NCBI GenBank assembly: GCA_031292175.1
Contig: JARLHQ010000005.1
Location: 1 to 64,000, forward strand
Reading direction: 5' to 3'
DNA from: Humidesulfovibrio sp.
GTDB taxonomy: Bacteria > Desulfobacterota > Desulfovibrionia > Desulfovibrionales > Desulfovibrionaceae
Length of the DNA stretch: 64,000 nt
This document shows positions 46,988-63,843 of this stretch, piece by piece. Under the pieces are notes generated by a model that was not told the DNA's origin, searched no databases, and saw nothing but the letters and a program-made list of their open reading frames with translations. Position numbers and translations under genes: made by a program. The stretch's first letter is position 1; each line of letters starts with the position of its first letter.

Positions 46988-47058
46988 CGTTTCGGCTGAT
47001 GAGTGCCAGGGGCTCCCGCGTGGGGCAGACCAGTTTCCCAAGCCCTTCGTTTGGTATG

Positions 47059-47091
47059 AGGGGGTCCGGAGGGATTCCCCCCAGGAGCATT
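47059..47091 (-). terminator. 3' hairpin / C-tract element downstream of the heptosyltransferase gene
   Basis: In gene sense, the stop codon is followed by ATGCTCCTGGGGGGAATCCC and TCCGGACCCCCTC. It is the shortest of the five such elements in the window. Confidence 0.55.
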
Positions 47092-48168
47092 TTACTCTTC
47101 CAGTAAAGCGAGCAGGCGGGGCAGCACGGCTTCGGGGGCGAAGTCCTCGAGGCATTTGCACCCCAGGCTGCAGGTGTCTTTGCCGCAGGGCTGGCAGGGC
47201 AGCCCCAGGGCGATGTCCTCGTGGCCGGGGCCGGGGAAGGTCCAGGCGTTGCTGGTGGAGCCGCGCACGGTGAGGCTTTTGGTGCCCACGGCCACGGCGA
47301 AGTGCCGGGGCGAGGAACAGTTGCCCAGGTGCAGCGCGGCCTCGGCCTGCATGGCGGCCATTTCGCGCAGGGAGGTCAGGCGCGGGGGCAGGATGAGCCG
47401 CTCAGGCGGGAGACCGGCAGCCAGGGCCAGGGTGCGCACCTTCGCCGCGATGTCCAGCTCGCCGGGTCCATAGAGCATGAGAAAACACAGGTCCGGGCGT
47501 CGTTCGGCGGCCAGGGCGAGCAGCTTGCCATAGTGCCGGGCGGGCCACTGCCGGGTGATGCGGCGATGCGTGGGATCCACGGTGATGAGGGTCTGGCCGG
47601 GGCCGAGACCCCAGGCGGCCAACTCGGCGCGGGCGCCTTCGCGCTCGGATGCGGTGAGGTAGAGACGCGGCGGCTCGTTTTCCCAGGGCAGGCCGAACGC
47701 GTTCATGAGCACCCCGGCCTTGCATTTGGCCGCGTAGGGGCCGCTGACAGGCGCCCAATGCGTGTAGACCAGCCGGTTATACCAGGGCGGCGTGTAGCTG
47801 AGCTTCACGGGCGCGTTGGAGAAGGCCAGAACCCAGCGGATGCGCGGCAGCTGCTGGAAATCGATGATCATGTCGTAGCGGCCCTGGCCGCCGCCGGTGC
47901 CGACTTTGCGGTAGAAGCGCAGACAGTCAAGGACGCTCTGGTCGCGTTCCAAGGCCCAGATGTGATGGATGTTCGGGTTGTTCTCCAGCACCGGGACGCA
48001 TTTTTTTTCCGTGAACACGTCGATGTCCGCGTCCGGGAAGCGCTTGCGGAGCATCTGCAGGCTCGGCGTGAGCAGAAGCACATCGCCGATCTGCCGCAGC
48101 TGGCAGCAGAGGATACGTTTGGGGTTCAACGCGGCGAGGCCGTCCGTGCGGAACTGTGTTATGGACAT
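47092..48168 (-). CDS. GT9-family heptosyltransferase (lipopolysaccharide core)
   Basis: A 358-residue inner-membrane-associated GT-B enzyme. Family 9 signatures: KRILCCQLRQIGDVLLLTPSL at the N terminus, VDPTHRRITRQWPARHYGKL at the domain junction and HLGNCSSPRHFAVAVGTKSL at the ADP-heptose site; the usual D/N-S-G of the donor site is changed to NCSSPRH. Cysteines cluster near the C terminus (LPCQPCGKDTCSLGCKCLED), as in GT9 proteins of Desulfovibrio-type bacteria. It follows the MsbA-like gene on the same strand, 23 bases apart, fitting lipid A-core assembly and export. Confidence 0.88.
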   Translation of the reverse strand: MSITQFRTDGLAALNPKRILCCQLRQIGDVLLLTPSLQMLRKRFPDADIDVFTEKKCVPVLENNPNIHHIWALERDQSVLDCLRFYRKVGTGGGQGRYDMIIDFQQLPRIRWVLAFSNAPVKLSYTPPWYNRLVYTHWAPVSGPYAAKCKAGVLMNAFGLPWENEPPRLYLTASEREGARAELAAWGLGPGQTLITVDPTHRRITRQWPARHYGKLLALAAERRPDLCFLMLYGPGELDIAAKVRTLALAAGLPPERLILPPRLTSLREMAAMQAEAALHLGNCSSPRHFAVAVGTKSLTVRGSTSNAWTFPGPGHEDIALGLPCQPCGKDTCSLGCKCLEDFAPEAVLPRLLALLEE

Positions 48169-48191
48169 GTTGGTCTGGTTCCCGCAGGGCG

Positions 48192-49955
48192 CTAGTTCGC
48201 GCCGAACTGCATTTCATAGAGCGTGCGGTAGATTTCGCAACGTTCCAATAGTTTCGAGTGTTTGCCCTGATCCACGATGCGGCCGTCGGCCATGACCACG
48301 ATGAGGTCGGCGGTGAGGATGGTGGACAGCCGGTGGGCGATGACCAGGCTGGTGCGTTCCTGCATAAGGTTTTCCAAGGCGAGCTGCACGATGCGCTCGC
48401 TTTCGGTGTCGAGCGCACTGGTGGCCTCGTCAAGAATGAGCAGGGGCGGGTTCAGCATGATGGCCCGGGCAATGGTGAGGCGCTGCTTCTGCCCGCCGGA
48501 GAGCTTGACGCCGCGTTCGCCCACCACGGTGTCGTAGCCCTCGGGCAGCTCCATGATGAAGTCATGCGCGTAGGCGGCCTTGGCCGCTGCCTCGACCTCT
48601 TCCTGGGTATACCCGATCCCCGCGCCGTAGGCGATGTTCTCGCGCACGCTGGTGTTGAACAGGAACGCCTCCTGCGAGACAAGGCCCATGCTGCGGCGCA
48701 GGCTGCCCAGGGTGTAGTCCGCGAGCGGTTGCCCGTTCAGCAGGATGCGGCCTTCCTGGGGGTCGAAAAAGCGCGGCACCATGTTCGCCAGGGTGGTTTT
48801 TCCGGAGCCGCTGGAGCCCACGATGGCGATACGTTCCCCGGCCTTTACCAGAAGATCGATGCCGCAAAGCGCGGGCCGGTTGGCGCCATTGTACGTGAAT
48901 ACCACGTTCTGGAAGGCGATCTGCTGGAAGGGACCCCGCAGCTCCACGCTGCCGCCGCGTTCGGCCAGCGCCTCTGAGGTATCCATGATTTCGAAGACGC
49001 GTTCCGCGCCGGTGAGCGCCATCTGGATGTCGATGTTCGCGGCGTTGATGCGCTTGATGGGATCGTAGAGCATGGCCAGCGCGGTGAGGAAGGACAAAAG
49101 CGCGCCGGTCGTCAGGTCGCCCGCGATGACGCGGCTGCCGCCGTACCAGATCACCAGGCCGGCAGCGAAGGAGCCGAGGGTCTCCATGACGCGCGAGCTT
49201 TGCTCGCTGGCTTGGATCTGTTTGACGCTACTGCCGATGAGCTTGGTGTTCTCGTCCTGGAAGTGCGCGACCTCTTTGCTTTCCTTGGCAAAGCCCTTGA
49301 TGACCTTGATGCCGGACAGACCTTCCTGGACGCGCACGGAGACGTCGGCCACGTGTCCCTGAGTGCGCCGCCCCAGTTTGCGCATGCGGCGGCTGTAGTA
49401 AACGAAAGGATACAGGGCCAGCGGCAGGACGATGGTGCCCCAGAACGCCAGCTTCCAGTCCAGATAGAACACGTAGAACGCCAGGCCGATGACGGAGAAG
49501 CTTTCCCGCGTCAGCATCACGATGGACGGCAGGCTGCCCCTGATGAGGCCCACGTCGTTCAGGACGCGGCTCATCAACATGCCCACCTGCGACTCATTGA
49601 AGTAGTCCATGGGCAGGTAGACGACCTTTGCGTACAGGTCGTTGCGCAGGTCGTTGATGGCCAGCAGGCCGGCCGTGTTCATGTAGTAGTTCTGCATGAA
49701 CCGAAAGATGCCCTTGGCGGTCATGAGCACCACGATGCCCAGCGTGACGAACTTGAGGGCCTGGACGTCCTTGTGGATGAGCACGTCGTCCACGGTTTTT
49801 TTGACCAGCCAAGCGCTGGCCGCGGCGCACGGCGCCACAACAACCATGCCCAGAACGGCCAACGCCACGCGGGTTTTGTAGCGCATAAAATACGCCATGC
49901 TGCGTTTGAGCATGCGCAGGGATTCTCGGCCTTGAGTCTGCTTGGGGAGGGTCAA
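48192..49955 (-). CDS. msbA: MsbA-like ABC exporter (lipid A flippase type)
   Basis: A 587-residue half-transporter with an N-terminal six-helix domain and a C-terminal ATPase. Walker [11 protein letters not shown], signature [11 protein letters not shown], Walker [13 protein letters not shown] and the switch His in IAHRLST are all present. The transmembrane part ([25 protein letters not shown]) matches MsbA, which moves lipid A-core across the inner membrane; downstream lies a core heptosyltransferase. The start may be TTG 49955 (GGAG eight bases upstream) or ATG 49913, which has no clear site. A peptide or drug exporter is possible but less likely. Confidence 0.88.
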
Positions 49956-50074
49956 ACTATGTCACTCCGTGTCTGCTTTTCCGGTAAAACGTCACCGGGG
50001 TTAGGCCCATATACTGACGCGGGCGCACCCTGGCAAGGACGGCTCCGACAAAAGAAGGCTGCTTTAAACAATTC

Positions 50075-50114
50075 CGAGGGGGGCGGGGACATGCCCCGGG
50101 AAATGTCTTTTTGC
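50075..50114 (-). terminator. 3' hairpin / C-tract element downstream of the ferredoxin gene
   Basis: In gene sense, GGCAAAAAGACATTTCCCGG and GGCATGTCCCCGCCCCCCTC follow the stop codon. It shares ATTTCCCGGGG with the element behind the thioesterase. Confidence 0.6.
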
Positions 50115-50336
50115 CTAATAGTCTTCCTCTTCCCAGCCCTCGGCGCTGATGCAGCGCTTGGGGCATAGGGCGATGGCTTCGCGCACCTCGTCGTGGGTGG
50201 CGAAGTTGCGCTTGAGATAGGGCCGGGCCATGTCGTCGTCCCAGCCGAAGATTTCCGGGCAGATCTCGGTGCAGCCGGAGCAGGCGTTGCAGCGAGAGAG
50301 GTCGAGGAGCACTTCATGCAGGCTGTCGTCGGCCAT
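50115..50336 (-). CDS. Ferredoxin, single [4Fe-4S]
   Basis: A 73-residue acidic electron carrier. The cluster ligands are Cys16, Cys19, Cys22 or Cys26 in CNACSGCTEICPEIF and Cys58 in LCPKRC; the extra Cys residues are typical of Desulfovibrio ferredoxin I-type proteins, where some cluster ligands vary. GGAGG precedes ATG 50336. It sits 16 bases behind the YchF-like gene and likely shares its transcript. It could feed the donor-less complex I, but that is speculation. Confidence 0.9.
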   Translation of the reverse strand: MADDSLHEVLLDLSRCNACSGCTEICPEIFGWDDDMARPYLKRNFATHDEVREAIALCPKRCISAEGWEEEDY

Positions 50337-50352
50337 GGCCGCCTCCGGGGGG

Positions 50353-51366
50353 TTAAACGTTGAAGCGGAATTCGATGATGTCGCCGTCCTGGACGATGTA
50401 GTCCTTGCCTTCCAGCCGGGCCAAGCCCAGTTCCTTGGCCTTCTTGAAGTCGCCCGCCTTGAGGAAGTCCTGGTAGCCGATGACCTCGGCGCGGATGAAG
50501 CCCTTCTGGAAGTCGGTATGGATGACGCCCGCGGCCTCGGGAGCCGTTGCGCCCACGCGCACCGGCCAAGAGCGCACCTCCTTGTCGCCCGCGGTCAGGA
50601 AGCTCATGAGGCCGAGCAGCTTGTAGGTGCGGCTGATGACCTTGTCGAGCGCGGACTCGGTGAGCCCCAGGTCGGTCAGGAACATGGCGCGCTCCTCGGG
50701 ATCGGTGATGGCGGCGAGCTCACGCTCCAGCCTGGCGGAGACGCTCATGTGCATCTGGCCGTCGCCATCGGCCGGGACCTGGAAGCTGTCCATGACGGTT
50801 TCGGCCACGTTCCACACGTAGAGGATGGGTTTGGCGGAGAGGAAGCGGAAGCCGCGCATGGCGGGTTCGGCGCACAGGGCCGGGTCCAGGCGCAGAGGCT
50901 TTTCGTCCTCCAGCATGGCGCGGGCCTTGGTCAGGCACTCCTCTTCCTTGGCGTCCACGAGGTCCTTGTTCTTTTTCTTGTCGCTGGCCATGCGTTCCTG
51001 GCGCTTCTCCACCACGGCCAGGTCGCTGACGAGCAGGTCGGCCTCAACGGCGCCGTGCTGTTCCTTGGGATCGACGAGGCCGGAGAAGGCGTCGAGCACA
51101 CACAGGTGGCAGTCGTAGGGGCGGATGTCGTTCAGCACGCGTTCGCCCAGGCCGCTGCCCTTGCCGCCGCCGCCTGGCACGTCCAGGTATTCGATCTCAC
51201 TCAAGGTGATCTTCTTGGGGTTGAAGAGCTTGATGAGCGGGTCCAGGCGGGGCTCCGGCACCTTGACCATGGCGCGGTTGCCTGCGGCTGTGGCCTTTTC
51301 GCCCGCGAGGGCGGCGAACATGTCGGTTTTGCCGGAGCCTGAGAATCCAAAGATAGCGGTTTTCAT
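50353..51366 (-). CDS. YchF-like P-loop NTPase (DUF933/TGS)
   Basis: A 337-residue protein from ATG 51366, with AAGGA upstream and a good promoter. N-terminal G domain with FGFSGSGKTDMF as the P-loop, where YchF/OLA1 proteins normally have G.PNVGKST.F; switch region EYLDVPGGGGKGSGLGERVL; a coiled-coil insert around KKKNKDLVDAKEEE; and YVWNVAE in place of the base-specificity NxxE. The C-terminal TGS-like domain is complete (GFIRAEVIGYQDF...DYIVQDGDIIEFRFNV). YchF binds ribosomes and prefers ATP. The altered P-loop and shorter length suggest a divergent paralogue. Confidence 0.82.
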   Translation of the reverse strand: MKTAIFGFSGSGKTDMFAALAGEKATAAGNRAMVKVPEPRLDPLIKLFNPKKITLSEIEYLDVPGGGGKGSGLGERVLNDIRPYDCHLCVLDAFSGLVDPKEQHGAVEADLLVSDLAVVEKRQERMASDKKKNKDLVDAKEEECLTKARAMLEDEKPLRLDPALCAEPAMRGFRFLSAKPILYVWNVAETVMDSFQVPADGDGQMHMSVSARLERELAAITDPEERAMFLTDLGLTESALDKVISRTYKLLGLMSFLTAGDKEVRSWPVRVGATAPEAAGVIHTDFQKGFIRAEVIGYQDFLKAGDFKKAKELGLARLEGKDYIVQDGDIIEFRFNV

Positions 51367-51415
51367 TAGTATTCCTTGCGTGTGGGATGGGTCCGGCAGA
51401 GCCCGGAAGGGGCGT

Positions 51416-51444
51416 ATTCTAGGCTGAAGCGCGCGCGGATGCAA
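51416..51444 (-). promoter_or_regulatory. Sigma-70 promoter for the YchF-like gene
   Basis: Minus strand TTGCAT (51444-51439), 17-base spacer, TAGAAT (51421-51416). The leader to the start codon would be about 43 bases with the ribosome binding site AAGGA in it. Confidence 0.6.
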
Positions 51445-51504
51445 GGCCGCCTCCCGGCCGCTCCGCCCACTGCCGCGCCGACAGCCCCGCCGTGCCTGGA
51501 ATGT

Positions 51505-51533
51505 TTGTCTCCGGCCAGGATTTGCCGTACAGT
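51505..51533 (+). promoter_or_regulatory. Candidate sigma-70 promoter for aroL and the GAK operon
   Basis: TTGTCT (51505-51510), 17-base spacer, TACAGT (51528-51533), 39 bases before the aroL start. Both boxes match the consensus at four of six positions. If real, it would drive aroL and probably the downstream GAK genes and aroC. Confidence 0.45.
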
Positions 51534-51572
51534 CGCCAGACATTAGCGACGGGACAAGCGGGAGGCGCAAGC

Positions 51573-52136
51573 ATGTCGGGCGAGCGGAACATCTATCTCA
51601 TCGGCGCGCGGGCCAGCGGCAAAACCACCCTGGGGCGCAAGCTCGCGGCGCTGCTCAAGCGGCCCTTCGTGGACACGGACCGGCGCGTGCGTCTGCGTAC
51701 GGGAAAAACCGTGGCCGAACTGGTGGAGGCGGGCGGCTGGGAGGCTTTCCGCGAGGCCGAGAGCATAGCCCTGGCCGAGGTCTCCGTGTTCTCCGGCCAG
51801 GTGGTGTCCTGCGGCGGCGGCATTGTGCTTGCACAGGAGAATTGCGACCTGCTCGCACGCGGCATTGTGCTCTATTTGAAGGCCCCGGCCGAGGTGTTGG
51901 CCGGACGGCTGGAGAAAAGCCCCCTGGCGGCCCAGAGGCCGTCCTTGACCGGCGGCGGCGTGGTGGACGAGGTGCGCCAGGTGCTGGCCGAGCGCGGGGG
52001 CATCTATCTTTCCTGCGCCCACGCCGTACTCCCGGCGGATGCGCCGCTTACCGAACTGGTGGATCTGGCCTTGGCGGAGGTTACGCGCCTGGGCGGGGCC
52101 AAGCCCGCTGTTGCCGGGCGTGGGCGAATCTCGTAG
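51573..52136 (+). CDS. aroL: Shikimate kinase
   Basis: A 187-residue P-loop kinase that phosphorylates shikimate in aromatic amino acid synthesis. ATG 51573 follows GGAGG. Motifs: IYLIGARASGKTTLGRKLA (Walker A), FVDTDRRV (substrate Asp), WEAFREAES, VSCGGGIVL (substrate-binding GGG loop) and AQRPSL in the lid. It starts a plus-strand run that goes on through the GAK genes to aroC, the last shikimate-pathway enzyme; the usual intermediate genes are not here. Confidence 0.95.
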   Translation: MSGERNIYLIGARASGKTTLGRKLAALLKRPFVDTDRRVRLRTGKTVAELVEAGGWEAFREAESIALAEVSVFSGQVVSCGGGIVLAQENCDLLARGIVLYLKAPAEVLAGRLEKSPLAAQRPSLTGGGVVDEVRQVLAERGGIYLSCAHAVLPADAPLTELVDLALAEVTRLGGAKPAVAGRGRIS

Positions 52137-52172
52137 CATGCGGGCCGCGCCAAAGGTGGCCGGGAGGTTCCG

Positions 52173-52778
52173 ATGAGCGCCTGGAGACTTGAAACCGACG
52201 TGAGCGAGGCGGATCTGCCGCGGCTTCTGCGGCTTTTGGCGAACGCCTTGGAAGCGGGCCCCGCCGAGGCCACCGGACCTTTGACCGGCTTTCCGCCGGA
52301 GGTGCGCGCGCTGGAGCTTTTTGCCGAGCGCAGCGGCGCGGGCTACGCGCTCACGCTCAAGGCCAGGCGCGCCGTGGAGTCCCATGCATCGGCCCACGAC
52401 GCCGGCGGCCAGAAGACCATGGGCCATGCCCGCGAGACGGACGCGGCCGAGCGCGCGCGGGAGAAGTACCGCCAGCTCAAGAAGCTCATGCAGGCAGACT
52501 ATAAGGTGCTGCAGAAGGCGGCCGAGGCCGGAACCCTGCCCGCGCCGGAGGTGCTGGAGTCTTTCCTGGCCCTGTGCGACTCCATGGCGGACATCGTCCA
52601 GCCGCTGCTGGCCCCGCGCGGCCTGGAGGCCAAGGAGCTGGCCCTGGCCAACCGGTCCTTTGTGGAGGAGGCGCGCGCCCTGCGTCGGGCCGTTTCCGCC
52701 CGGGACGTGGCCGCTCTGGCCGAGGTTCTGGCGCGGTTGGAACGCCGCAAGTCGGCCTGCCACGTCCAGTTCCGCTGA
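52173..52778 (+). CDS. GAK system XXXCH-type protein
   Basis: A 201-residue hydrophilic protein. The last part is helical (about 90-201) and ends SACHVQFR: a CH pair followed by Phe-Arg at the extreme C terminus. I recall this as the XXXCH domain of the GAK system, described as a cytochrome c-prime-like helical domain in which the first Cys of CxxCH is missing. With one Cys only, covalent heme attachment is doubtful. The N-terminal 75 residues are a separate small domain (MSAWRLETDVSEADLPRLL, with FPPEVRALELFAERSGAGYALTLKARR), weakly reminiscent of the amphi-Trp protein encoded further on. It starts 36 bases after aroL and is the first GAK gene. Confidence 0.75.
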   Translation: MSAWRLETDVSEADLPRLLRLLANALEAGPAEATGPLTGFPPEVRALELFAERSGAGYALTLKARRAVESHASAHDAGGQKTMGHARETDAAERAREKYRQLKKLMQADYKVLQKAAEAGTLPAPEVLESFLALCDSMADIVQPLLAPRGLEAKELALANRSFVEEARALRRAVSARDVAALAEVLARLERRKSACHVQFR

Positions 52779-52826
52779 GACCCGCCGGAAAATTTCACCC
52801 CGCCGCACGGCGGGCAAGGAGCACGG

Positions 52827-53987
52827 ATGACGCGCCAGCATCAGCACGAGGGCTGCACCGCCCTGACGGCCGAGCCCCTCACGCCAGACGTCACAGAGTT
52901 TGACGAGCGGCTCTTCGCCAGTCTGATCGACACGCGCCTGGACGCGGCGGCCGAGGCGCGCATCCTCACGCCCGGCGTGGTCCAGCCCGCGCAGGACTCG
53001 GTCCTGGCCGTGCACTGGCACCCTGAGCACGTGCCGTTGCCGCTCATCAAGCGGCGCATCGAGGCCAGTTACCCGGCCATGCGCAAGAGCCTCATCATCC
53101 CCACCCAGCACAATGAGCTGCTGGAGTACGGCCCGTACTCCGGGGTGGAGGTGGACTGCTACTCGCGCGGATTCAATCAGAAAGTGCAGCTTCTTCTGCA
53201 CTTCCGCACTGAAAAGCTGAGCGACGCGCACGTGCTGAAAAGCATGCTGGCGCACACCCACGCCTACCGTTCCAGCCAGCTCTTCGACTACCTCAGCACC
53301 ATCACGAAGCCCGACGAGGCCCGGCTGGCCCTCGCGGCGCGCGAGTCCGGCGCGGAGCCCGAACTGGTGGACCTGGCGCGCATCTGCTGTCTGAAGCTCG
53401 AAGCCCTCATCAAGGCCCACGAAGGCGACATGCCCGTGGACGCCATCAAGAACAAGCTGGTGCGCAACTTTGTGGACGGCCTGCGGCCGTTTTTGGGTGA
53501 GATCACGGCCAACCGCGTGCAGGTCTTCCTGAAAGAGGTCAAGGCCGTGGTCAAGATCCAGTTCCCGCTCAGCTATTTCTACCGTACCACGGAGTTCATC
53601 GAGGAGGCGCGCGGTCTGGGCGGCGGGGTGGTCATCCCCCACCCCGAGCAGTTCTGGCCCATCCTGCTGGCCGACTACGACGTGGATGGCTACGAGGTGT
53701 GGAACCCGCAATCCCAGCGCTACACGGAGTTCCTCATCTCCGTCCTGTATGAGAAGAACCGTCGGCGCGGCAACGGCGAGCGCCGCTGGCTGGTGTTCAT
53801 GGGCGACGACACCCATATGGGCGAGAAGACCCTGCCCCTGAGCGGCGGGACAGATCCGGCCAAGGCCAATCGCGAGATCGGCCTCCAGCCCGCCTGGGAC
53901 GATCTCTCCATCGGCAAGAAGCTCATCGTGGCGGACATGGACCGCGCGCGTGTCATCGAGGAATACTCCGCCCGGCTGGACGGCTAG
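52827..53987 (+). CDS. PHP-like metal-dependent phosphoesterase domain protein of the GAK locus
   Basis: A 386-residue soluble protein. I do not recall a family name, but motifs along the chain follow the order seen in PHP phosphoesterases: HWHPEH (about residue 65), IIPTQHNELLEYGPYSGVEVD with its Glu and the following VQLLLHF, PHPEQFWPIL (about 272), DVDGYEVWNP and GDDTHMG (about 331), equivalent to the GSD.H motif. These would supply His and Asp ligands for two or three metal ions. A helical insert (about 165-235) interrupts the domain. If the assignment holds, the protein would remove phosphate from a product of the two kinases of the locus. The classification is inference from motif order, not from a search. 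Confidence 0.6.
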   Translation: MTRQHQHEGCTALTAEPLTPDVTEFDERLFASLIDTRLDAAAEARILTPGVVQPAQDSVLAVHWHPEHVPLPLIKRRIEASYPAMRKSLIIPTQHNELLEYGPYSGVEVDCYSRGFNQKVQLLLHFRTEKLSDAHVLKSMLAHTHAYRSSQLFDYLSTITKPDEARLALAARESGAEPELVDLARICCLKLEALIKAHEGDMPVDAIKNKLVRNFVDGLRPFLGEITANRVQVFLKEVKAVVKIQFPLSYFYRTTEFIEEARGLGGGVVIPHPEQFWPILLADYDVDGYEVWNPQSQRYTEFLISVLYEKNRRRGNGERRWLVFMGDDTHMGEKTLPLSGGTDPAKANREIGLQPAWDDLSIGKKLIVADMDRARVIEEYSARLDG

Positions 53988-54005
53988 GCGGCAACAGGGG
54001 GGCAC

Positions 54006-54275
54006 ATGGGCGACCAGAAGTTCGTATTTGAATCCATGCAGGACGCGGAAAGCATCCGCAAATACCTTCAGGCCGTGATGGACGGCCTGGGCAAGGGGCG
54101 GTTGGCCGTGGCCGCCGGGGACGAGCCGTTCGTGCTCCAGCCCGCTGAGCTGCTGACCTTCACGGTGAAGGCCAGGAAGCGCGGTGGCTCCGGAAGGCTC
54201 TCCCTCACCATCTCCTGGCGCTGCCCGGAGGAGGACGCGCCCAAGGCCGGGGAAACCCTGAAGATCGAGGTCTGA
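54006..54275 (+). CDS. amphi-Trp domain protein (GAK system)
   Basis: An 89-residue single-domain protein. It matches the amphi-Trp domain as I recall it: KFVFESMQDAESIRKYLQAV at the start, GDEPFVLQPAELLTFTVKARKR in the middle and LSLTISWRCP with the conserved Trp near residue 72. The domain is small, alternates charged and hydrophobic residues, and has no known activity; it could be the carrier or substrate handled by the enzymes of the locus. The next gene starts two bases after its stop. Confidence 0.8.
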   Translation: MGDQKFVFESMQDAESIRKYLQAVMDGLGKGRLAVAAGDEPFVLQPAELLTFTVKARKRGGSGRLSLTISWRCPEEDAPKAGETLKIEV

Positions 54276-54276
54276 C

Positions 54277-55923
54277 ATGAGCGGCCTGGAAGGGTTGGAG
54301 GAAAATTTCCGTTTCCTCGTGCTTGAGGTGACGAGCCAGATGGCCGAGACGCGCGCCTTCGCGGCCGCGCCCACCCACGCGGGCTATGACAAGGTCGTCT
54401 CGCGCGACGACTACATCGACAACCTCAAGAACATCGTCGAGGATGCCTGCTATTCGCGCATCCACAGCGCGCGCGGGCTCTCCAAACGCGACATCGACCG
54501 CATCCGGGGTTTGCAGATCATTTCGGCCAACCTGGAACGCATCGCCGACTACTGCGTGAACATTGCCGGGCAGATGCGCTACCTGAAGGATCTTTCGGTG
54601 CTCACGCGCCACAATCCGGGCCCGCTCTTCGACATCATCGACGAGGCGCTGGCGCACATCCTGGAGGTGCGCTCCCGCGCGGACGTGAACGGGGCGCTTG
54701 GCATCTGCCGGGCGGAGTTCGACCTGGACCGGCTGTACAAGGACGCCTTCGACGCCCTCATGGAGGAGCTGCGCCAGGGGCGCGACGTGCAGAACGGCGT
54801 CACCGCCATCTTCATCTTCCGCTACCTGGAGCGCATCGGCGACTCGCTTCTGAACGTCGGAGAGGCGCTGCTCTTCTCGGTCATCGGCGAGAAAATCAAG
54901 ATCGAGCAGTTCCAGGCCCTGCAGCAGACGCTCTCCACCGCCGGGTTCGAGGGCGACGTGGGGGACATCGACTTCCAGTCCATCTGGGGCACGCGCTCCG
55001 GCTGCCGCATCGGCCGGGTGAGCCCCAAGGACGCGGCTCCGACCGATCCGACACAGGGCGGCGTGTTCAAGGAAGGCAACCTGAAGAAGATCCGGCGCGA
55101 GCGCGAGAACCTGGAGCTCTGGGCCAAGGTCTCGCCGGGCACGGGACCGCGCATCTTCAGCTACCATGAGGAGGGCGACAGCGCCTCCATGCTCGTGGAG
55201 TTCCTGCCTGGCTGCACCTGGACCGAAGTGGTGCTCACCGCCGACCGGAACGTGCTGGAGGACGCCATCTTCGTGTTCGAGCAGACCGTGGGCGACATCT
55301 GGCGCTCCACGCTGGAGCGCGGCGAGTCGCCGCTGGACTACATGGAACAGTTGCAAAACCGCATGGCCGCCGTGCGGCACGTGCATCCGGACTTTCTCCG
55401 CCAGACGCGCAGCCTGGGCGCGGTGTCCGTGCCCTCCACCGAGGAGCTCGTCGCGCAGTGCCGCGCCGTGGAGGGCACGCTGCGCACGCCCATGACCGTT
55501 TTGCTGCACGGCGATTTCAACGCGAATAACATCGTCTTCGACCAGGGCTCGCCGCGCGTGCATTATGTGGATCTGCACCGCACCCACAGGGGCGACTTCA
55601 TCCAGGACGCCTCGGTGTTCCTGGTGTCCTTCTTCCGCATGCCCATCTTCGAGCCGGGCCTGCGGTGGCGCATCAACCATATGATCGCCTCGTTCTTCGA
55701 GCATTCGCGCGACTTCGCCGACGACATCGGCGACGAGGCCTGGCAGGCGCGCCTGGCCCTGGGCCTGGCGCGCTCGTTCATGACCAGCACGCGTTTTGAA
55801 CTCAACTACGACTTCGCGCGGGAGATGTTCCTGCGTGCCCACTATCTCATGGAAGGCCTGGTGGCCCACGCGGGCGCGCCCTGGGAGGCCTACCGCCTGC
55901 CCAGGGCGATTCTGTTCTACTAG
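54277..55923 (+). CDS. PhoU-like domain fused to an aminoglycoside phosphotransferase-type kinase
   Basis: A 548-residue fusion. Residues about 1-215 are helical and PhoU-like: the pattern LQIISANLERIADYCVNIAGQ (with R.AD..) and again FRYLERIGDSLLNVGEALLF near 190 is typical of PhoU metal-binding repeats. After a linker (about 230-260), residues about 265-548 are an APH/choline-kinase fold: FKEGNLKKIRRERENL (Lys region), LLHGDFNANNIVFD with catalytic Asp413, and YVDLHRTHRGDFIQD with metal-binding Asp432 in place of DxD. The kinase half is complete enough to be active on a small molecule or peptide. Such a fusion is unusual. It is coupled to the amphi-Trp gene and followed by the ATP-grasp gene. 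Confidence 0.78.
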   Translation: MSGLEGLEENFRFLVLEVTSQMAETRAFAAAPTHAGYDKVVSRDDYIDNLKNIVEDACYSRIHSARGLSKRDIDRIRGLQIISANLERIADYCVNIAGQMRYLKDLSVLTRHNPGPLFDIIDEALAHILEVRSRADVNGALGICRAEFDLDRLYKDAFDALMEELRQGRDVQNGVTAIFIFRYLERIGDSLLNVGEALLFSVIGEKIKIEQFQALQQTLSTAGFEGDVGDIDFQSIWGTRSGCRIGRVSPKDAAPTDPTQGGVFKEGNLKKIRRERENLELWAKVSPGTGPRIFSYHEEGDSASMLVEFLPGCTWTEVVLTADRNVLEDAIFVFEQTVGDIWRSTLERGESPLDYMEQLQNRMAAVRHVHPDFLRQTRSLGAVSVPSTEELVAQCRAVEGTLRTPMTVLLHGDFNANNIVFDQGSPRVHYVDLHRTHRGDFIQDASVFLVSFFRMPIFEPGLRWRINHMIASFFEHSRDFADDIGDEAWQARLALGLARSFMTSTRFELNYDFAREMFLRAHYLMEGLVAHAGAPWEAYRLPRAILFY

Positions 55924-55944
55924 GCCGGGGGAGGGAGGAACGCC

Positions 55945-56865
55945 GTGCGCATCGCCGTTGTGGGAATAGCCGGGGGCTGGTCCTCCGAAGTCTTGGCCGA
56001 CGCCGTCGGGCGCGCCACCGGCGAGCGTGTGCTGGTGGACCTGGACCACGCGCGGCTCGACTTCGCTTCCGGGCGGCTTTTGTGCCGGGATCAGGACGGC
56101 CGCGAACTCGATCTTGCGAGCCTGGACGCCCTGTGTGTCAAGAAGGTGGCCAAGCGCTATGCGCCGCGGATGATCGACCGACTGGAGATGTTGCGCGTGG
56201 CGGCCGCGCGCGGGGTGCGCTGCTTTTCCGACCCGGAACGCATTCTGCGCCTGGTGGACCGTCTGGCCTGCACCGTGACCCTGGCGAACGCGGGCATGCC
56301 CCTGCCGCCGACAACGGTCACCGAGGACCCGGAACAGGCTTTGGATGCCGTGCGCGTCTACGGCAGGGCCGTGCTCAAGCCTCTGTTCACCTCCAAGGCG
56401 CGCGGCATGGCGCTCCTTGACGCCGAGGCCCTGGACGCGAGCGAGATCGCCACGGCCCTGGAGGCCTTCCGCGCCGTGAACCCGGTCATGTACATCCAGC
56501 AGGCCGTGGAGCTGCGCGGCCAGGATCTGGGCGTATGTTTCCTGGGCGGGGAGTATCTGGGCACCTACGCCCGGCGCAAGACCCCAGGCGGCTCTCCGGA
56601 AGGCGAAACCGTCTGGAGCACCAGCACCGTGAACGGCGGCCGCTACGCCGCCTTCGATCCGCCCCGGGAGATCATCGACTTGGCGCGGCGCGCGCAGGAG
56701 CCCTTCGGTCTCGACTTCACCTGCGTGGACGTGGCGCTCACCGAGACCGGGCCTTACATCTTCGAGGTCTCAGCCTTTGGCGGCTTCCGGGGGCTTTTGC
56801 AGGCGCGCGGCCTGGACGTCGCGCAGTTGTTCACGGCCCATGTGCTGCGGGAGCTTAAGCGGTGA
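55945..56865 (+). CDS. GAK system ATP-grasp enzyme (RimK-like)
   Basis: A 306-residue enzyme with GTG start after GGGAGGAA. The ATP-grasp fold is visible in YGRAVLKPLFTSKARGMALL (Lys and Gly-rich loop, about residues 130-152), MYIQQAVELRGQDLGVCFLGGEY, and the metal-binding end GPYIFEVSAFGGFRGLLQA. The usual Glu-x-Asn at the last site reads EVS, so one metal ligand is replaced by Ser. RimK-type relatives add amino acids to proteins or make tetrahydromethanopterin side chains. The product here is unknown. The next gene overlaps by four bases (GTGA). Confidence 0.8.
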   Translation: MRIAVVGIAGGWSSEVLADAVGRATGERVLVDLDHARLDFASGRLLCRDQDGRELDLASLDALCVKKVAKRYAPRMIDRLEMLRVAAARGVRCFSDPERILRLVDRLACTVTLANAGMPLPPTTVTEDPEQALDAVRVYGRAVLKPLFTSKARGMALLDAEALDASEIATALEAFRAVNPVMYIQQAVELRGQDLGVCFLGGEYLGTYARRKTPGGSPEGETVWSTSTVNGGRYAAFDPPREIIDLARRAQEPFGLDFTCVDVALTETGPYIFEVSAFGGFRGLLQARGLDVAQLFTAHVLRELKR

Positions 56866-58046
56866 GCGCGCAGTCCGGCGGACCCGCCGCCTTCGACACC
56901 CTGGCCCGCGTGCTGGCGGAGCGCGAGTCCGCTCCATACGCCTTCCGCTTGCGCCTGGAGGAGCTGACGCTTTCCGTGCGTTCCAACTCCGGGGCGGTCA
57001 TCAATGATCTGCGCGGCTATTTCGCGCCCTTTGCGGCGACGGAGGAATCCGCTCCCGCGGACCTGGATTTTCTGCTGCTCGACAGCCCGGTGGAGGTTCC
57101 ACCCATGGAACTGGCCACGCGGCCGCACCTGCCGGGCAAGCGGCCGGATAAGGAGCGCACGGCCGACCTGCCGGGCGCGGACGGTGGCGGGCGCATTGTG
57201 CGCAAGCAGGCCACGGGCATGCTCTTTGTGTTTGGCGGGCGCGGCGTGAACATTGCGCTCGGTCCCTGCGCGCTGAACCGCAACCAGCTGGTAAACTTTC
57301 TGTGCGCGCGCTACATGGAGCGCCGCGTGGCCCGAGGCTGGGTGCTGGGCCACGCCGCCGGGGTGGCCCGCCCGCAAGCCCTTGGCGGCAAGGCCCTGGC
57401 TTTGTGCGGGTTCGCGGGCATGGGCAAGAGCACCCTCGCCCTGCATCTGGTGGCGCGCGGCTGCGACTTTTTGAGCAACGACCGGGTGTTGGTGGAGCCC
57501 CGTCCGGGACAGGCCCCGGTGCTGCACGGCATCCCCAAGCACCCGCGGCTGAACCCCGGCACGGCCCTGGGCAACCCGGAGCTGTCGCCGCTTCTGGCCT
57601 GCGCCCTGCCTGAGGCCTTGCGTCGGGCCTACGCCGATCTGCCCACGGCGGCGCTTTACGCCGTGGAGGACAAGTACGATGCCGTCATCGACGAGTGTTT
57701 TGGGACACGTTCCAGCGGCGGGACGGCTGGAGACTCGCGCTTCCGGCTGGCCGCCCCTCTGGCCGGGCTGGTGGTGCTGAACTGGCGGCACGGCGGCGGA
57801 TCGCTCAGCGCCCGGCGCGTGGATTTGGCGCTGCGCCCGGATCTGCTGGAGGCTCTGCGCAAGCCGCCGGGGGCATTTTATCTGGACACGGCCTTGAAAA
57901 CGGCCAGGCTCACGGCGGCGGACTGCCTGGAGGCGCTTTCCGGCGTGCCTGCGCTGGAGCTTTCGGGCGGTTCGGACTTTTCGGCCGGGGCCACGGCCTG
58001 CCTCGATTTTTTTGATGAAGAGCAAGCACAAGGACGGGAACCATGA
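56862..58046 (+). CDS. HprK-related kinase B (GAK system)
   Basis: A 394-residue protein whose C-terminal part carries an HprK-like kinase: the P-loop CGFAGMGKSTLALHLVARGC (Lys189), then FLSNDRVLVE, the equivalent of the HprK acidic loop, and KHPRLNPGTAL. HPr kinase phosphorylates a Ser on HPr; no HPr is encoded here, so a different target is likely. The N-terminal 150 residues resemble the extra domain of PqqD/HprK-related proteins and are not assigned. It uses GTG overlapping the ATP-grasp stop, and its own stop overlaps the aroC start (ATGA). Confidence 0.82.
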   Translation: MSAQSGGPAAFDTLARVLAERESAPYAFRLRLEELTLSVRSNSGAVINDLRGYFAPFAATEESAPADLDFLLLDSPVEVPPMELATRPHLPGKRPDKERTADLPGADGGGRIVRKQATGMLFVFGGRGVNIALGPCALNRNQLVNFLCARYMERRVARGWVLGHAAGVARPQALGGKALALCGFAGMGKSTLALHLVARGCDFLSNDRVLVEPRPGQAPVLHGIPKHPRLNPGTALGNPELSPLLACALPEALRRAYADLPTAALYAVEDKYDAVIDECFGTRSSGGTAGDSRFRLAAPLAGLVVLNWRHGGGSLSARRVDLALRPDLLEALRKPPGAFYLDTALKTARLTAADCLEALSGVPALELSGGSDFSAGATACLDFFDEEQAQGREP

Positions 58047-59101
58047 GCGGCAACACCTTCGGCACACTTTTCTCCCTCACCACCTTCGGCGAGTCCCACG
58101 GCGTGGGCCTGGGCGGCGTGGTGGATGGCTGCCCGCCGGGCATCATTCTTTCCGAGGACATCATCCAGCGGGAGCTGGACCGCCGCAAGCCCGGCCAGGG
58201 CGGACCCGCCGCCACGGCGCGCAAGGAGTCCGACACCGTGCGCCTGCTCTCCGGCGTGTTCGAAGGCAAGACCACGGGCACGCCCATCGGCTTCGTCGTC
58301 ATGAATGAGGACCAGCGTTCGCGCGACTACTCGGCGATCATGGATGTGTATCGGCCGGGGCACGCGGACCTGGGCTTCGACGCCAAGTTCGGCGTGCGCG
58401 ACTACCGGGGCGGGGGGCGGTCCTCCGGCCGCGAGACCGTCTCGCGCGTGGCGGGCGGGGCCATCGCCCAGGAGCTGCTGCGCGCGGAGGGCATCGCCGT
58501 GTGCGCGGCCACGGTGGAGTTGGGCGGCATCGCCGCGAGCGGGCGGGATTTCGACGGCGCGCTGGAGCGGCCCTTTTTCAGCGTGGATGCGGACAGCGTG
58601 GACGCCTGGGAGGCGCGCGTGCGCGAGGTGAAGGCCGGGGGCGACACGCTCGGCGGCATCGTGGAGCTGCGCGTCACGGGCGTGCCCGCGGGCTTGGGCG
58701 AGCCCGTGTTCGACAAGCTGGACGCGCGTCTGGCGTACGCCCTCATGGGGGTGGGCGCGGTGAAGGGCGTGGAGATCGGCGCGGGCTTCGCGGCCGCGCG
58801 GCTCACCGGCAGCCAGAATAACGACCCCATGACGCCGGATGGATTTTTATCCAATAACGCCGGTGGGATTCTGGGCGGCATGGCCAGCGGCCAGGAGCTT
58901 GTCGTCCGCGTGGCGGTAAAGCCCATTCCGTCCATCGCCCGCGAGCAGCGGACCGTGGACCGCAACGGCGCGGCCAGACGCATCACCATCGGAGGGCGGC
59001 ACGACATCTGCGCCATTCCGCGCATTGTTCCGGTCTTGCGGGCCATGGCGCTTTTGGCCCTGGCTGACTTCGTGCTGCTGCAACGGCGCGTGGGGCGCTA
59101 G
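58043..59101 (+). CDS. aroC: Chorismate synthase
   Basis: A 352-residue FMN-dependent enzyme forming chorismate from 5-enolpyruvylshikimate 3-phosphate. Motifs: TFGESHGVGLGGVVDG, FEGKTTGTPIGF, YRPGHADLGFDAKFGVRDYRGGGRSSGRET and QNNDPM. It starts within the HprK-like stop codon, so it depends on the GAK operon for translation. Together with aroL it frames the GAK genes. The hybrid kinase gene ends ten bases away on the other strand. Confidence 0.97.
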   Translation: MSGNTFGTLFSLTTFGESHGVGLGGVVDGCPPGIILSEDIIQRELDRRKPGQGGPAATARKESDTVRLLSGVFEGKTTGTPIGFVVMNEDQRSRDYSAIMDVYRPGHADLGFDAKFGVRDYRGGGRSSGRETVSRVAGGAIAQELLRAEGIAVCAATVELGGIAASGRDFDGALERPFFSVDADSVDAWEARVREVKAGGDTLGGIVELRVTGVPAGLGEPVFDKLDARLAYALMGVGAVKGVEIGAGFAAARLTGSQNNDPMTPDGFLSNNAGGILGGMASGQELVVRVAVKPIPSIAREQRTVDRNGAARRITIGGRHDICAIPRIVPVLRAMALLALADFVLLQRRVGR

Positions 59102-59111
59102 CCGTCCAGCC

Positions 59112-61094
59112 TTAATTTTCCGTTCGGGCCGCGTGCTCAAGCAGGCACTGGTCCAGGGCCCGGAACAGCTCCTCCGCAACCAGTGGCTTGGGCACGAAAC
59201 CATCCATGCCCAGCTCCAGGAAACGCGCTCTGTCCTTCTCGCGGGCGTAGGCAGTCAGGGCGATGATCGGCACGGTTTTGTCCAGGCCGGGCACTTCCCC
59301 ACCGCGTATGTGGTGCGTGGCCTCGATGCCATCCATGAGCGGCATCTGGATGTCCATAAGGATGACGTCCACCTTCTCCTTGTCCAGGGCGCGCAGGGCT
59401 TCCACCCCGTTTTCCGCCTCGAACACGGTGTCTCCCCTGCGGCGCAGCAGGGTGGTGGTCATGACGCGGTTGATCACCTCGTCCTCCACCAGCAGGATGC
59501 GCCTGCCCGTGGGGCTCGGCTTTGTGACGGCGGCGTCGGATTTGACGTCCACGGCGACCGCGGTCCTGGACAGCGCCAGGCGCAGGGTGAAGAAGAAGCG
59601 GCTGCCCTTGCCCGGTTCGGAGGTGACTGCGATGTCGCCGCCCATGAGCGTCACCAGGTTCCGGGCGATGCACAGGCCGAGGCCCATGCCGCTGCGCCGC
59701 TTGGTCAGGACGTCCTCCGCCAGGGTGAAGCTGTCGAAGATGGACTCCATCTTTTCCTTGCGGATGCCGACGCCGGTATCCTCCACGTAAAAGATAAGGT
59801 TGGCCCAGCCCGCTGCGTCCGCACGGCCTTGTGCCATGTTCGCAGGGGCCACGCCCATCTCGATGCGTCCCGTGGATGTGCATTTCAGCGCATTGCTCAT
59901 AAGGCAGACCAGGGTTTGGCGCACGCGGAATTCGTCGCCGCAGACCAGCCGGGGCACGTCGTGCCGAACGCTCAGGTCGAGGGTCAGGCCTTTCAGTTTG
60001 GCCTGGACCGAATAGGTGTTGGCGACGGAACGCATGAGCGCGATCAGATCGAACTCTTTGACAATGGGCTCAATCGCTCCGGCCTCGATGTCCGCCAGAT
60101 CCAGCAGATTGTTGATGACGTTGGTGAGGCGCACGGCAGATTCGCGGATGACCTCCAGGCAGTCCTTGTGCTCTTCCGAAGGCTGGCCAGCCAAGCCCAC
60201 CTGGGCCATGCCCAGGATGCCGTTCAGGGGCGTGCGCAGTTCGTGGCTGATGTTCGCCAAAAATTGCGACTTCATCATGGTGGCGCTTTCAGCCAGCATT
60301 TTGGCCTTGACCAGCTCCTGCTCGCGCCGGATCTGCTGTGTGATGTCTTGGGAAAATCCCGCCAGGGCGTACACCGCGCCGGAGTCGTCAATGACGGGAT
60401 AGATGCAGACCGAGGAGATGCGGTCCGCGAATTCCTCCTTGTAGCAGATGGTTTTTTTTTCGCGCAGGGCGCACGCAAACTTCTCCTTGCGGTGGTCGGC
60501 GTGCGGGGCTGTCAGAAAGGCGAATGAGGATTTCCCGATGAGTTCCTGGACTGTGCTGCCGCGCCGCCGGGCGGCCTCGTCATTCAGGGCCAGGAATACG
60601 CCTTGCGGGTCCACCAGGATGGCCGATTCCTGGCTGGCGTTCAACAGGGCCTTGATCATGCGCTCGGAGTCGATGACTTTTTTCTCAGAGAGCACGTCGT
60701 TGGTGACATCCTCGCGGATGACGATGCCGCCGATGAACTCACTATCTTTCTTGATCGGGATGGCGCGCAGGGTCTGATAGCCGCTTTGCCCGCCGCTGAA
60801 CTCCGAGGTGAAGATGTTTTCGGCCTGGATGGACTGGCCGTTCATGACCTTTTCGATCTGCTGGGTCAGTCCGGCGCTGGCGATGCCCGGCAGTCCGAAG
60901 ATCGAGTGGCCGAGATAGTCTTCCTTGCCGCGCGCGTTTCTGGCGAAATACCGCAGGTGCCAGTCGTTGACGAAGGTGATTTCTCCCTGGCTGTTGAAGC
61001 ACATGATGGAGACCGGAGCCAGTTCCGCCAGCTGGCTGGCGTCACAGATGGGGACATCCTTGATGTCCCTGATGTCCTTGTCTTGAGGGGCCAT
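59112..61094 (-). CDS. Cytosolic hybrid histidine kinase (PAS-PAS-HisKA-HATPase-REC)
   Basis: A 660-residue protein from ATG 61094, preceded by GGAGG five bases before; upstream in-frame starts are not supported. No membrane segment. Two PAS domains (about 20-135 and 150-265; the second has SILVDPQGVFLALNDEA-like sequence and FADRISSVCIYPV), phosphoacceptor His284 in NISHELRTPL, the ATPase with GMGLGLCI, and a receiver with Asp581 in MDIQMPLMDG. It would phosphorelay to an Hpt protein not encoded nearby. The first PAS includes a loop NARGKEDYLGH seen in redox- or light-independent sensors; the signal is unknown. Confidence 0.92.
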   Translation of the reverse strand: MAPQDKDIRDIKDVPICDASQLAELAPVSIMCFNSQGEITFVNDWHLRYFARNARGKEDYLGHSIFGLPGIASAGLTQQIEKVMNGQSIQAENIFTSEFSGGQSGYQTLRAIPIKKDSEFIGGIVIREDVTNDVLSEKKVIDSERMIKALLNASQESAILVDPQGVFLALNDEAARRRGSTVQELIGKSSFAFLTAPHADHRKEKFACALREKKTICYKEEFADRISSVCIYPVIDDSGAVYALAGFSQDITQQIRREQELVKAKMLAESATMMKSQFLANISHELRTPLNGILGMAQVGLAGQPSEEHKDCLEVIRESAVRLTNVINNLLDLADIEAGAIEPIVKEFDLIALMRSVANTYSVQAKLKGLTLDLSVRHDVPRLVCGDEFRVRQTLVCLMSNALKCTSTGRIEMGVAPANMAQGRADAAGWANLIFYVEDTGVGIRKEKMESIFDSFTLAEDVLTKRRSGMGLGLCIARNLVTLMGGDIAVTSEPGKGSRFFFTLRLALSRTAVAVDVKSDAAVTKPSPTGRRILLVEDEVINRVMTTTLLRRRGDTVFEAENGVEALRALDKEKVDVILMDIQMPLMDGIEATHHIRGGEVPGLDKTVPIIALTAYAREKDRARFLELGMDGFVPKPLVAEELFRALDQCLLEHAARTEN

Positions 61095-61236
61095 GTCTTC
61101 CTCCGGCACAGTTGACCTGGGGAGAGGCGAAAAGGCGCCACTGTATTTCATGGCGTATAGCAGTTCGCCAGGCAAGGCAATCGTATTTGCTGGCGTGGCG
61201 GGCGGCCCGGATGCGGGATGCGCCGGGCGGATTGGA

Positions 61237-63585: not shown

Positions 63586-63712
63586 GCGGGTAACCTCCGG
63601 TCGTCCAGTCTGGGTCAGAACTGCAAGGCCGCGCGCGGGAGCGAAAGGCGAGGAAGGCGGGAGCACGCTGGCGCAAAGTCCAGCGGAAGCACGCCGGGGG
63701 GGCGTTTCTGTG

Positions 63713-63807: not shown

Positions 63808-63814
63808 TATCCTG

Positions 63815-63843
63815 TGGCTAGCCCGCTGGGGTTGGGCTGTCAA
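63815..63843 (-). promoter_or_regulatory. Candidate metE promoter
   Basis: Minus strand TTGACA (63843-63838), a perfect -35, with TAGCCA (63820-63815) 17 bases on, a poor -10. It begins ten bases after the stop of the upstream transporter gene and would give a leader of about 220 bases. Confidence 0.4.

Follow-up and report, generated by a model that had tools for sequence, protein, structure and literature searches.

The GAK operon between aroK and aroC in Humidesulfovibrio: a second, CofD-less copy and a possible link of the GAK system to phosphate

The NCBIfam models give the GAK system a name without a function, and a literature search found no study of it. What, then, might its genes do together? 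The question is raised by a 64,000-nt stretch of Humidesulfovibrio sp. (contig JARLHQ010000005.1, positions 1-64,000; hereafter the window), in which the initial annotation described a complete-looking GAK operon and proposed a cycle of two kinases, a ligase and a phosphoesterase. Here we report that this operon is a second, CofD-less copy in an aro setting that belongs to a clade of its own, together with the co-occurrence of PHP and grasp genes, the phosphate- and lipid-related neighbours of other GAK operons and the domain make-up of the XXXCH protein. The neighbours provide a first functional direction for GAK, namely phosphate.

Gene content and membership in the GAK system

All six annotated ORFs were found in one direction on the + strand, spanning 52173-58046. 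A shikimate kinase gene (AroL/AroK type; 51576..52136, +; NF002988, 178.9 bits against a cut-off of 161) lies upstream, followed by the genes of an XXXCH protein (52173..52778; TIGR04358, 49.2 bits, cut-off 40), a 386-aa putative metal-dependent phosphoesterase of an unnamed family, assigned from its predicted PHP fold (52827..53987), an amphi-Trp protein (54006..54275; TIGR04354, 63.7 bits, cut-off 31), a fusion of a PhoU domain and an APH-type kinase (54277..55923), a RimK/MptN-like GAK ATP-grasp enzyme (55945..56865; TIGR04356, 387.8 bits, cut-off 300) and an HprK-related kinase B (56862..58046; TIGR04355, 332 bits, cut-off 200). The chorismate synthase gene aroC (58043..59101, +; NF003793, 439 bits) lies downstream. 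From aroK to aroC the intergenic gaps are 36, 48, 18, 1, 21, −4 and −4 bases, the first of them separating the end of aroK from the start of the XXXCH gene. Both 4-base overlaps noted earlier exist; only the grasp/HprK overlap falls within the six genes, the other being that of HprK with aroC. No sigma-70-like promoter was found in 51300-59400 (0.7 expected), and no Rfam match reached its gathering score within 44000-64000. A defence system was ruled out, as none of the six genes had a PADLOC match at E up to 0.001.

Membership in GAK was borne out by the HMM search, in which four of the six genes (XXXCH, amphi-Trp, grasp_GAK and HprK_rel_B) passed their NCBIfam cut-offs. Compared with GAK as modelled in NCBIfam (TIGR04355, 04356, 04357 and 04358, with amphi-Trp TIGR04354), the window operon has neither CofD_rel_GAK nor a second amphi-Trp gene, and its PHP-fold protein and PhoU-APH fusion match no GAK model in the scan. 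The annotated fusion is real: both domains reside in one 548-aa protein and exceed their gathering scores (PhoU, PF01895, E 9e-22; APH, PF01636, E 5.9e-7), and a PhoU-APH protein is present in 77 of 81 GAK loci with wide flanks, stand-alone PhoU being left out of the count. The PHP and PhoU-APH proteins are thus two near-constant GAK members without a matching GAK model.

Two of the families, grasp and PHP, do not occur independently of each other. Their genes co-occur almost perfectly in 199 genomes, with 97 genomes carrying both, one grasp only, one PHP only and 100 neither. Among 20 chosen genomes, HprK_rel_B exceeded its cut-off in 14 of 16 grasp-positive and none of four grasp-negative ones, the grasp-positive genomes without it being G337 and G370. 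The neighbourhood analyses started from 144 GAK loci, 137 of them with a called grasp gene, which gave 130 non-redundant loci (119 others and 11 of the window type). Nitratidesulfovibrio is one of the genera in which GAK loci occur. Genes in these neighbourhoods were called with a codon-scored caller that missed some of them, so the HprK and CofD counts from the 81 wide-flank loci are lower bounds; this caller found HprK in 8 of 11 window-type loci, as against 12 of 12 in a six-frame search.

A second GAK operon at the aro site

The genome holds two GAK operons, the window copy and one on contig C14. The absence of CofD from the former had been noted correctly; both CofD and a second amphi-Trp gene are found in the C14 operon but not in the window copy. 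Most other GAK operons add CofD and many a second amphi-Trp gene, CofD family members occurring in at least 65 of the 81 wide-flank loci. The label "complete-looking" therefore does not hold, since the same genome holds a fuller paralogue of this CofD-less copy. All 12 window-type loci fetched lie between aroK and aroC, and CofD was found in none of these 12 stretches. Among 25 genomes checked for CofD_rel_GAK, it was found nowhere in G040 (100% complete), G339 or G382 (99%), all of which have the window type. Neither HprK_rel_B, which 2 of the 16 grasp-positive genomes lack, nor CofD, which is missing from genomes that have the window type alone, is indispensable, and CofD may not be a defining feature of GAK. 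Such genomes, with six genes and no CofD, constitute a natural experiment. The aroK/aroC setting, like the phosphate link of the relatives, was absent from the initial annotation.

In a tree restricted to the 61 loci in which three or more of the four proteins were long enough, the window-type operons form their own clade with support 1.0. The median dN/dS values of the six GAK genes (0.23-0.54) stand beside 0.28 for aroC and 0.39 for aroK. Among 15 genus members, G406 is the sole genome without any GAK match; it is 83% complete and lacks aroC too, so the absence was not taken as a true loss. The window operon is best read as a vertically inherited second GAK operon between aroK and aroC. Most simply, its type would have arisen from a full operon by loss of CofD and the second amphi-Trp gene. 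Two full operons at non-aro sites (L080 and L091) group more closely with the window clade (support 0.92) than do the g198 operons at the aro site, and descent at the aro site is therefore unproven.

Predicted folds of the component proteins

Predicted folds are now available for two of the proteins, the PHP-like and the XXXCH protein. Even at E up to 0.1 the former matched no Pfam or NCBIfam family, and it had no sequence relative in the PDB at E up to 1. Its structure model (pLDDT 90.4) gave only two sets of Foldseek matches below E 0.001, both with probability 1.00: the PHP phosphoesterase BAD_1165 (3e0f, E 3.8e-6; 3o0f) and RNase AM (9etk, E 1.2e-4). It differs from these in a long helical insert, and the TM-scores are only 0.38-0.55. 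Seven residues (H63, H65, H95, H125, H272, D327 and H330) are invariant in 51 sequences, and the His and Asp residues of such a motif set are metal ligands in PHP enzymes. The earlier PHP-like identity is thus backed by the predicted fold but not by any sequence-family match, and the model supports a putative phosphoesterase with a PHP fold and a metal-binding-type His/Asp set. Proteobacterial GAK operons carry calcineurin-like, histidine-phosphatase or NUDIX enzymes in place of PHP, and in Catenovulum a single protein has a weak histidine-phosphatase match and a NUDIX match.

The XXXCH protein consists of an N-terminal amphi-Trp-like domain (about residues 1-66), a C-terminal four-helix bundle (about 86-200) and a CH..FR end. 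Pairwise profile matching aligned XXXCH with amphi-Trp at probability 89.7 (E 1.9e-6). Most of the best Foldseek matches of the C-terminal half were cytochromes c' or b562, with probability 1.00 and a best E value of only 0.02. The histidine of the CH motif is present in 29 of 29 aligned sequences and the cysteine in at least 90% (serine in L125), and a CH..[YF][KR] ending is a feature of c-type cytochromes. Moderate evidence, in part from the structure model, thus favours an amphi-Trp-like domain joined to a cytochrome c'-like bundle. XXXCH shares the bundle fold match and this ending with cytochromes c' and b562; unlike cytochrome c', it has an incomplete CXXCH motif, in which the first cysteine is absent and only CH is kept, and heme binding is hypothetical. 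Visual inspection of the XXXCH protein from the window revealed no export signal. As for the amphi-Trp protein, at least 90% of 39 sequences keep Ser10; its PDB matches were weak, with a fatty-acid-binding protein ranking first (E 0.02), and were set aside.

The ATP-grasp enzyme belongs to the fold family of the RimK/MptN/LysX ligases, with a profile match to 7qyr over nearly its full length (E 1.4e-23), and its nearest solved structures are alpha-L-glutamate ligases. MptN is its best non-GAK model (115.6 bits, E 2.2e-33) and misses the cut-off of 350, as RimK does (PRK10446, 53.7 against 331 bits). Alignment to two solved ligases showed that the Asn of their EVN motif is replaced by Ser, giving an EVSAFGG-type motif in GAK.

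Phosphate-related neighbours and the possible role of GAK

Relatives of pst, phoU and phoH, the PhoH2 assignment being below its NCBIfam cut-off (325 against 680), adjoin 19 of the 119 non-window GAK loci and 1 of 40 control 20-kb regions, all from Desulfobacterota (Fisher p 0.018); a PhoU match at L071 was a PhoU-APH fragment and was left out. With nine phosphate/lipid markers, among which the OlsF (397 against 620) and ArsC-like assignments are also below cut-off, at least one was found at 38 of 119 loci and 1 of 40 controls (p 3.6e-5). Both p-values are optimistic, because the markers were picked after the neighbours had been seen. At L112, L121, L142, L167 and L188, pstB and a stand-alone phoU lie upstream of the GAK operon on the same strand, as do pstB and a 220-aa gene without assignment at L154. 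No alpha- or gammaproteobacterial locus is in the pst/phoU/phoH list. Pho-box-like sites are weakly enriched, occurring at 9 of 103 other GAK operon starts and 13 of 416 non-GAK operon starts (p 0.017); at a stricter score (at least 11 of 14) they occur at 7 of 104 GAK operon starts, against 1.6% of shuffles. In passages of the phosphate study of D. alaskensis G20, mutants in pst, phoR, agt and olsF are unfit under phosphate limitation, and those passages name no GAK gene (PMC5193443). In comparison with this Pho regulon of sulfate reducers (pst, agt and olsF in D. alaskensis G20), many GAK operons are flanked by genes related to pst, phoU or olsF or by one for a GT4 glycosyltransferase, whereas the window copy lacks such neighbours and a Pho box: none of the 11 window-type loci has a phosphate neighbour, and none of their 11 operon starts has a Pho-box-like site.

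These observations lead us to propose, tentatively, that the GAK system in general is a module linked to phosphate status and serves to produce or turn over a phosphorylated small molecule, the window operon being its CofD-less second copy. The data themselves cover gene content, co-occurrence, genomic neighbourhoods and predicted folds; the whole of the chemistry, and the sign of any response to phosphate, are what we infer. Phosphorylation of a small molecule would fall to the HprK-type kinase and to the APH kinase, the latter under the control of the PhoU domain fused to it, and the RimK/MptN-like ATP-grasp enzyme would join an amino acid, or a group like it, to a carboxylate. The CofD-like protein of full operons might contribute another step, of phosphodiester type; the PHP enzyme, or its proteobacterial replacement, could hydrolyse the product or an activated form of it, and amphi-Trp and XXXCH may be binding proteins for the product or for the enzymes. 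Lacking the CofD step, the window operon would carry out just the core reactions, co-expressed with shikimate genes. The cycle proposed earlier fits these parts, with the PHP fold backed by the predicted structure; the carrier or target role that it gave to a small protein stands as a proposal.

Three other readings were weighed against this module. By the chemistry of F420, GAK might build an F420- or methanopterin-like cofactor tail, in which the kinases would yield a phosphorylated hydroxy acid, the CofD-like protein a phosphodiester and an MptN/CofF-like ATP-grasp enzyme a glutamate cap. The MptN match, the glutamate-ligase structures and the frequent CofD are in its favour, but we consider it rather unlikely: the MptN score is far under its cut-off, the EVN Asn is replaced, whole genomes keep the other six genes without CofD_rel_GAK, and the named neighbours, a minority of all neighbours, include no pterin or deazaflavin gene. 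A protein-phosphorylation relay, modelled on the switching of HPr by HprK, would have HprK-B and PhoU-APH phosphorylate amphi-Trp and XXXCH, and PHP reverse this. Here an HprK-type kinase adjoins small conserved proteins; amphi-Trp homology reaches the XXXCH N-terminus, so that two or three such targets can occur in a single operon, and Ser10 is a conserved candidate site. Such a relay is nevertheless unlikely, as it has no place for the ATP-grasp enzyme, the PHP fold matched a putative phosphoesterase and an RNase rather than protein phosphatases, and Ser10 may serve only as a helix cap.

ATP-grasp kinases and NUDIX enzymes also act in inositol pyrophosphate metabolism, and the ATP-grasp enzyme could be a kinase in a system handling pyrophosphorylated metabolites (inositol pyrophosphates or dinucleoside polyphosphates). 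The NUDIX and histidine-phosphatase partners, including the Catenovulum protein, the PhoU domain and the phosphate neighbours would suit this; with a grasp sequence closest to amino-acid ligases instead of inositol kinases and no inositol-specific gene among the named neighbours (at L114, Gfo/Idh/MocA dehydrogenases are encoded a few kb from the GAK locus), we regard it as very unlikely.

Within the phosphate-linked reading, a more far-reaching version is quite doubtful. GAK would be an unrecognised phosphate-limitation arm in many bacterial lineages, where the PhoU-gated kinase, the atypical ATP-grasp enzyme and PHP would control how much of a new phosphorylated metabolite is present. The operon in the window would be coupled to chorismate synthase and make a different product, possibly from a shikimate-pathway carboxylate, and XXXCH would use a cytochrome c' fold to sense heme or redox state in the cytosol. 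Mutant libraries already exist for some sulfate reducers, in which the phosphate idea could be put to a direct test.

Gene identities, setting and predicted folds of the window operon

Re-reading of the open reading frames bore out the six forward-strand genes that the initial annotation had placed at 52173-58046. A search with the NCBIfam models placed four of them, encoding the XXXCH, amphi-Trp, ATP-grasp (grasp_GAK) and HprK-related (HprK_rel_B) proteins, above their cut-offs, in agreement with the proposed assignment to GAK, which is a named system in NCBIfam. Both domains of the PhoU-APH fusion were likewise clear in Pfam, and the 386-aa PHP-like protein gave no Pfam or NCBIfam match at E up to 0.1. 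Because the shikimate kinase gene aroK (51576-52136, forward strand) lies 36 bases upstream of the operon and the chorismate synthase gene aroC (58043-59101, forward strand) overlaps its end by 4 bases, the eight genes probably form a single transcription unit. In the literature collection searched, the names of the GAK system retrieved no relevant paper, the single hit of one search being a phage genome paper, and the terms ATP-grasp, PhoU and amphi were absent from the main text of a D. vulgaris mutant-library paper (PMC10102598).

The predicted model of the PHP protein (pLDDT 90) matched BAD_1165 (entries 3e0f, E 3.8e-6, and 3o0f) and RNase AM (9etk, E 1.2e-4); no other structure matched at E up to 0.001, and the TM-scores of these three matches were modest (0.38-0.55). 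In seven genomes of genus g207, the PHP protein matched as two pieces within one open frame, which indicates that about 15-65 residues are inserted in frame near residue 132. The XXXCH model (pLDDT 88, pTM 0.58) comprised an alpha-beta N-terminal domain, related to amphi-Trp by pairwise profile comparison, and a four-helix bundle, for which Foldseek gave no match at E up to 0.001 and cytochrome c' as the best matches (probability 1.00, E 0.02). Judged from the predicted fold, the bundle may resemble cytochrome c'; the CH is retained and the first Cys of CXXCH is absent. The CH end was kept in 11/11 readable proteins of window-type loci, i.e., GAK operons lying between aroK and aroC and lacking CofD; the twelfth locus, L065, has a run of N at that site. 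The grasp enzyme was nearest to the alpha-L-glutamate ligases, but all 12 aligned GAK sequences carry Ser where the EVN of these ligases has Asn.

Distribution and membership of the GAK system

Grasp_GAK was found at E 1e-60 or better in 17 of 247 genomes of the phylum. Within the family, relatives of the window grasp protein and the PHP-like protein each occurred in 98 of 199 genomes. When the two lists were compared by eye, 97 genomes had both and 100 neither, and the remaining two were G411 (78% complete), with grasp only, and G298 (87% complete), with PHP only; the co-occurrence expected by the initial annotation was therefore near-perfect for this pair. PHP was also present in all 18 chosen grasp-positive genomes, including those with scattered operons, and HprK_rel_B exceeded its cut-off in 14/16 grasp-positive versus 0/4 grasp-negative genomes of a chosen set. 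A scan of GTDB species matched at least 591 stretches, at least 488 of which encode a relative; the best 80 of these relatives belonged, by record title, to Desulfobacterota, FCPU426, Zixibacteria, Eisenbacteria, Spirochaetia, Phycisphaerae, Alphaproteobacteria and Gammaproteobacteria.

Members were then counted in the 81 of 119 non-redundant non-window loci (all GAK loci not of the window type) with at least 5.5 kb on each side of grasp. PhoU-APH was present in 77, amphi-Trp in 73, CofD in 65, HprK in 64, PHP in 63 and XXXCH in 48, these counts being lower bounds for genes missed by the gene caller. Eleven PHP-less loci were named among the 81, nine Alpha- or Gammaproteobacterial and two from deltaproteobacterial MAGs (L178, L187). 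Many Proteobacterial operons carry a calcineurin-like phosphoesterase in place of PHP, and some additionally a histidine phosphatase or a NUDIX protein; this replacement by unrelated phosphoesterases suggests that PHP would act in phosphoester or anhydride hydrolysis. The near inseparability of PHP and grasp in the family and the near constancy of PhoU-APH are among the strongest constraints on the model, a phosphate-status-linked module whose chemistry we infer to be the making and turnover of a phosphorylated small molecule. A further such constraint is that CofD and HprK are each missing from some genomes that retain the remaining members.

Several individual loci were recorded besides. L083 and L087 are GAK operons with CofD adjoining grasp, and their genomes (G337, G370) gave no HprK_rel_B genome-wide at E up to 1e-5. 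Four genomes (G213, G311, G271, G276) have an extra HprK_rel_B copy (338-370 bits) near PHP or CofD, apart from the grasp operon. In the Catenovulum sediminis operon, one protein (L175:11010-12023) combines a weak histidine-phosphatase N-terminus with a NUDIX domain. Three operons (L114, L115, L116) lie on large Rhodobacterales plasmids, in Qingshengfaniella, Pseudooceanicola and Tritonibacter.

Two operons in one genome and the history of the window copy

Besides the window operon, the assembly (2.6 Mb, 81% complete) has another grasp_GAK gene, on contig C14. There the six-gene order of the window operon is repeated and then extended by CofD_rel_GAK (546 bits) and one more amphi-Trp gene; upstream lies an OlsF-like gene that scored 397 bits, short of its cut-off of 620. 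Paired proteins of the two operons share 29-61% identity. The earlier statement that CofD is not here thus holds for the window operon and fails for the genome, since the C14 operon carries it.

The window-type grasp gene was found in 12 of the 15 genomes of the genus (69-100% identity), and G413 and G427 were window-type by PHP (76%), bringing the count to 14; the fifteenth, G406, gave no window-type match, and its assembly also lacks aroC. All 12 window-type loci fetched contained aroK, the six operon genes and aroC, and neither CofD nor a second amphi-Trp gene was found in the fetched stretches. Two of them had split or cut frames, L057 in HprK and L065 in both HprK and grasp; assembly error may account for this. 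CofD_rel_GAK was not found in six of the 15 genomes, namely G040 (100% complete), G339 and G382 (both 99%) and three of lower completeness, G391, G427 and G406; it was present in 10/10 tested genomes outside the genus, picked for having grasp.

Concatenating four proteins from each of 61 loci gave a tree in which the window-type loci formed one clade (support 1.0), and a node with support 0.99 united this clade with four other loci. Two of these (L078 and L079, genus g198) carry a CofD-containing full operon, likewise between aroK and aroC; the other two (L080 and L091), also full operons, had no aro gene within the fetched stretch and stand nearer the window clade than the g198 loci (support 0.92). 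In 6/19 other family genomes, the 1.5 kb retrieved ahead of aroC contained aroK, and no GAK gene was detected between the two. A full operon could have entered the aroK-aroC gap once and later moved out in L080 and L091 or their kin, or it could have entered twice; under either history, CofD and one amphi-Trp gene would have been lost from the window type. The other operon of the genus formed a separate clade (support 1.0) that includes L081, although its genome (G368, 66% complete) is placed in another genus (g179); either transfer or bin contamination would explain this. Both clades divide the shared genomes into the same two main groups. According to dN/dS (6-12 genomes per gene), the six window-type genes are under purifying selection about as strong as that on their aro neighbours, and in PHP, PhoU-APH, grasp and HprK (48-60 sequences each) no column with at least 95% agreement was found in which the window protein deviates.

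Phosphate-related genes beside GAK loci

Nine markers (pstS, pstC, pstA, pstB, phoU, phoH, GT4 glycosyltransferase, OlsF and ArsC-like) were counted at the 119 non-window loci and in 40 control regions of 20 kb, set at chosen round coordinates in 13 Desulfobacterota genomes. Relatives of pst genes, phoU or phoH occurred at 19 loci, GT4 at 18, OlsF at 10, ArsC-like at 11 and any marker at 38, whereas pst genes occurred in 1/40 controls and the other markers in 0/40 (Fisher, p 0.018 for pst/phoU/phoH and 3.6e-5 for any marker). The comparison is conservative in that the controls were longer (mean 19.9 kb versus 16.3 kb including the operon itself), against which stands the selection of the markers after the neighbours had been seen. 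PstB (412 versus 343) and PstS (276 versus 207) passed their NCBIfam cut-offs; PhoH2 and the ArsC-like protein fell below theirs. At five loci (L112, L121, L142, L167, L188), the operon has pstB and a stand-alone phoU ahead of it on its own strand, with 0-2 genes between; at L154 this position is taken by pstB and an unassigned gene of 220 aa. A Pho-box-like repeat was seen at 9/103 GAK operon starts versus 13/416 other operon starts in the same loci. None of the nine markers was found at window-type loci, so it is homology alone that would extend the phosphate link to the window copy. Mutants of D. alaskensis G20 in pst, phoR, agt and olsF are reported to be unfit under phosphate limitation, and the phosphorus-free lipids of this strain to require agt and olsF (PMC5193443).

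The GT4 protein, of about 800-900 aa with the glycosyltransferase at the C-terminus, recurs beside GAK operons (L162:12856-15366 and 24 related genes), FCPU426 and Spirochaetia records included. Inspected by eye, its N-terminus resembles PHP, and Pfam reports glycosyltransferase domains only.
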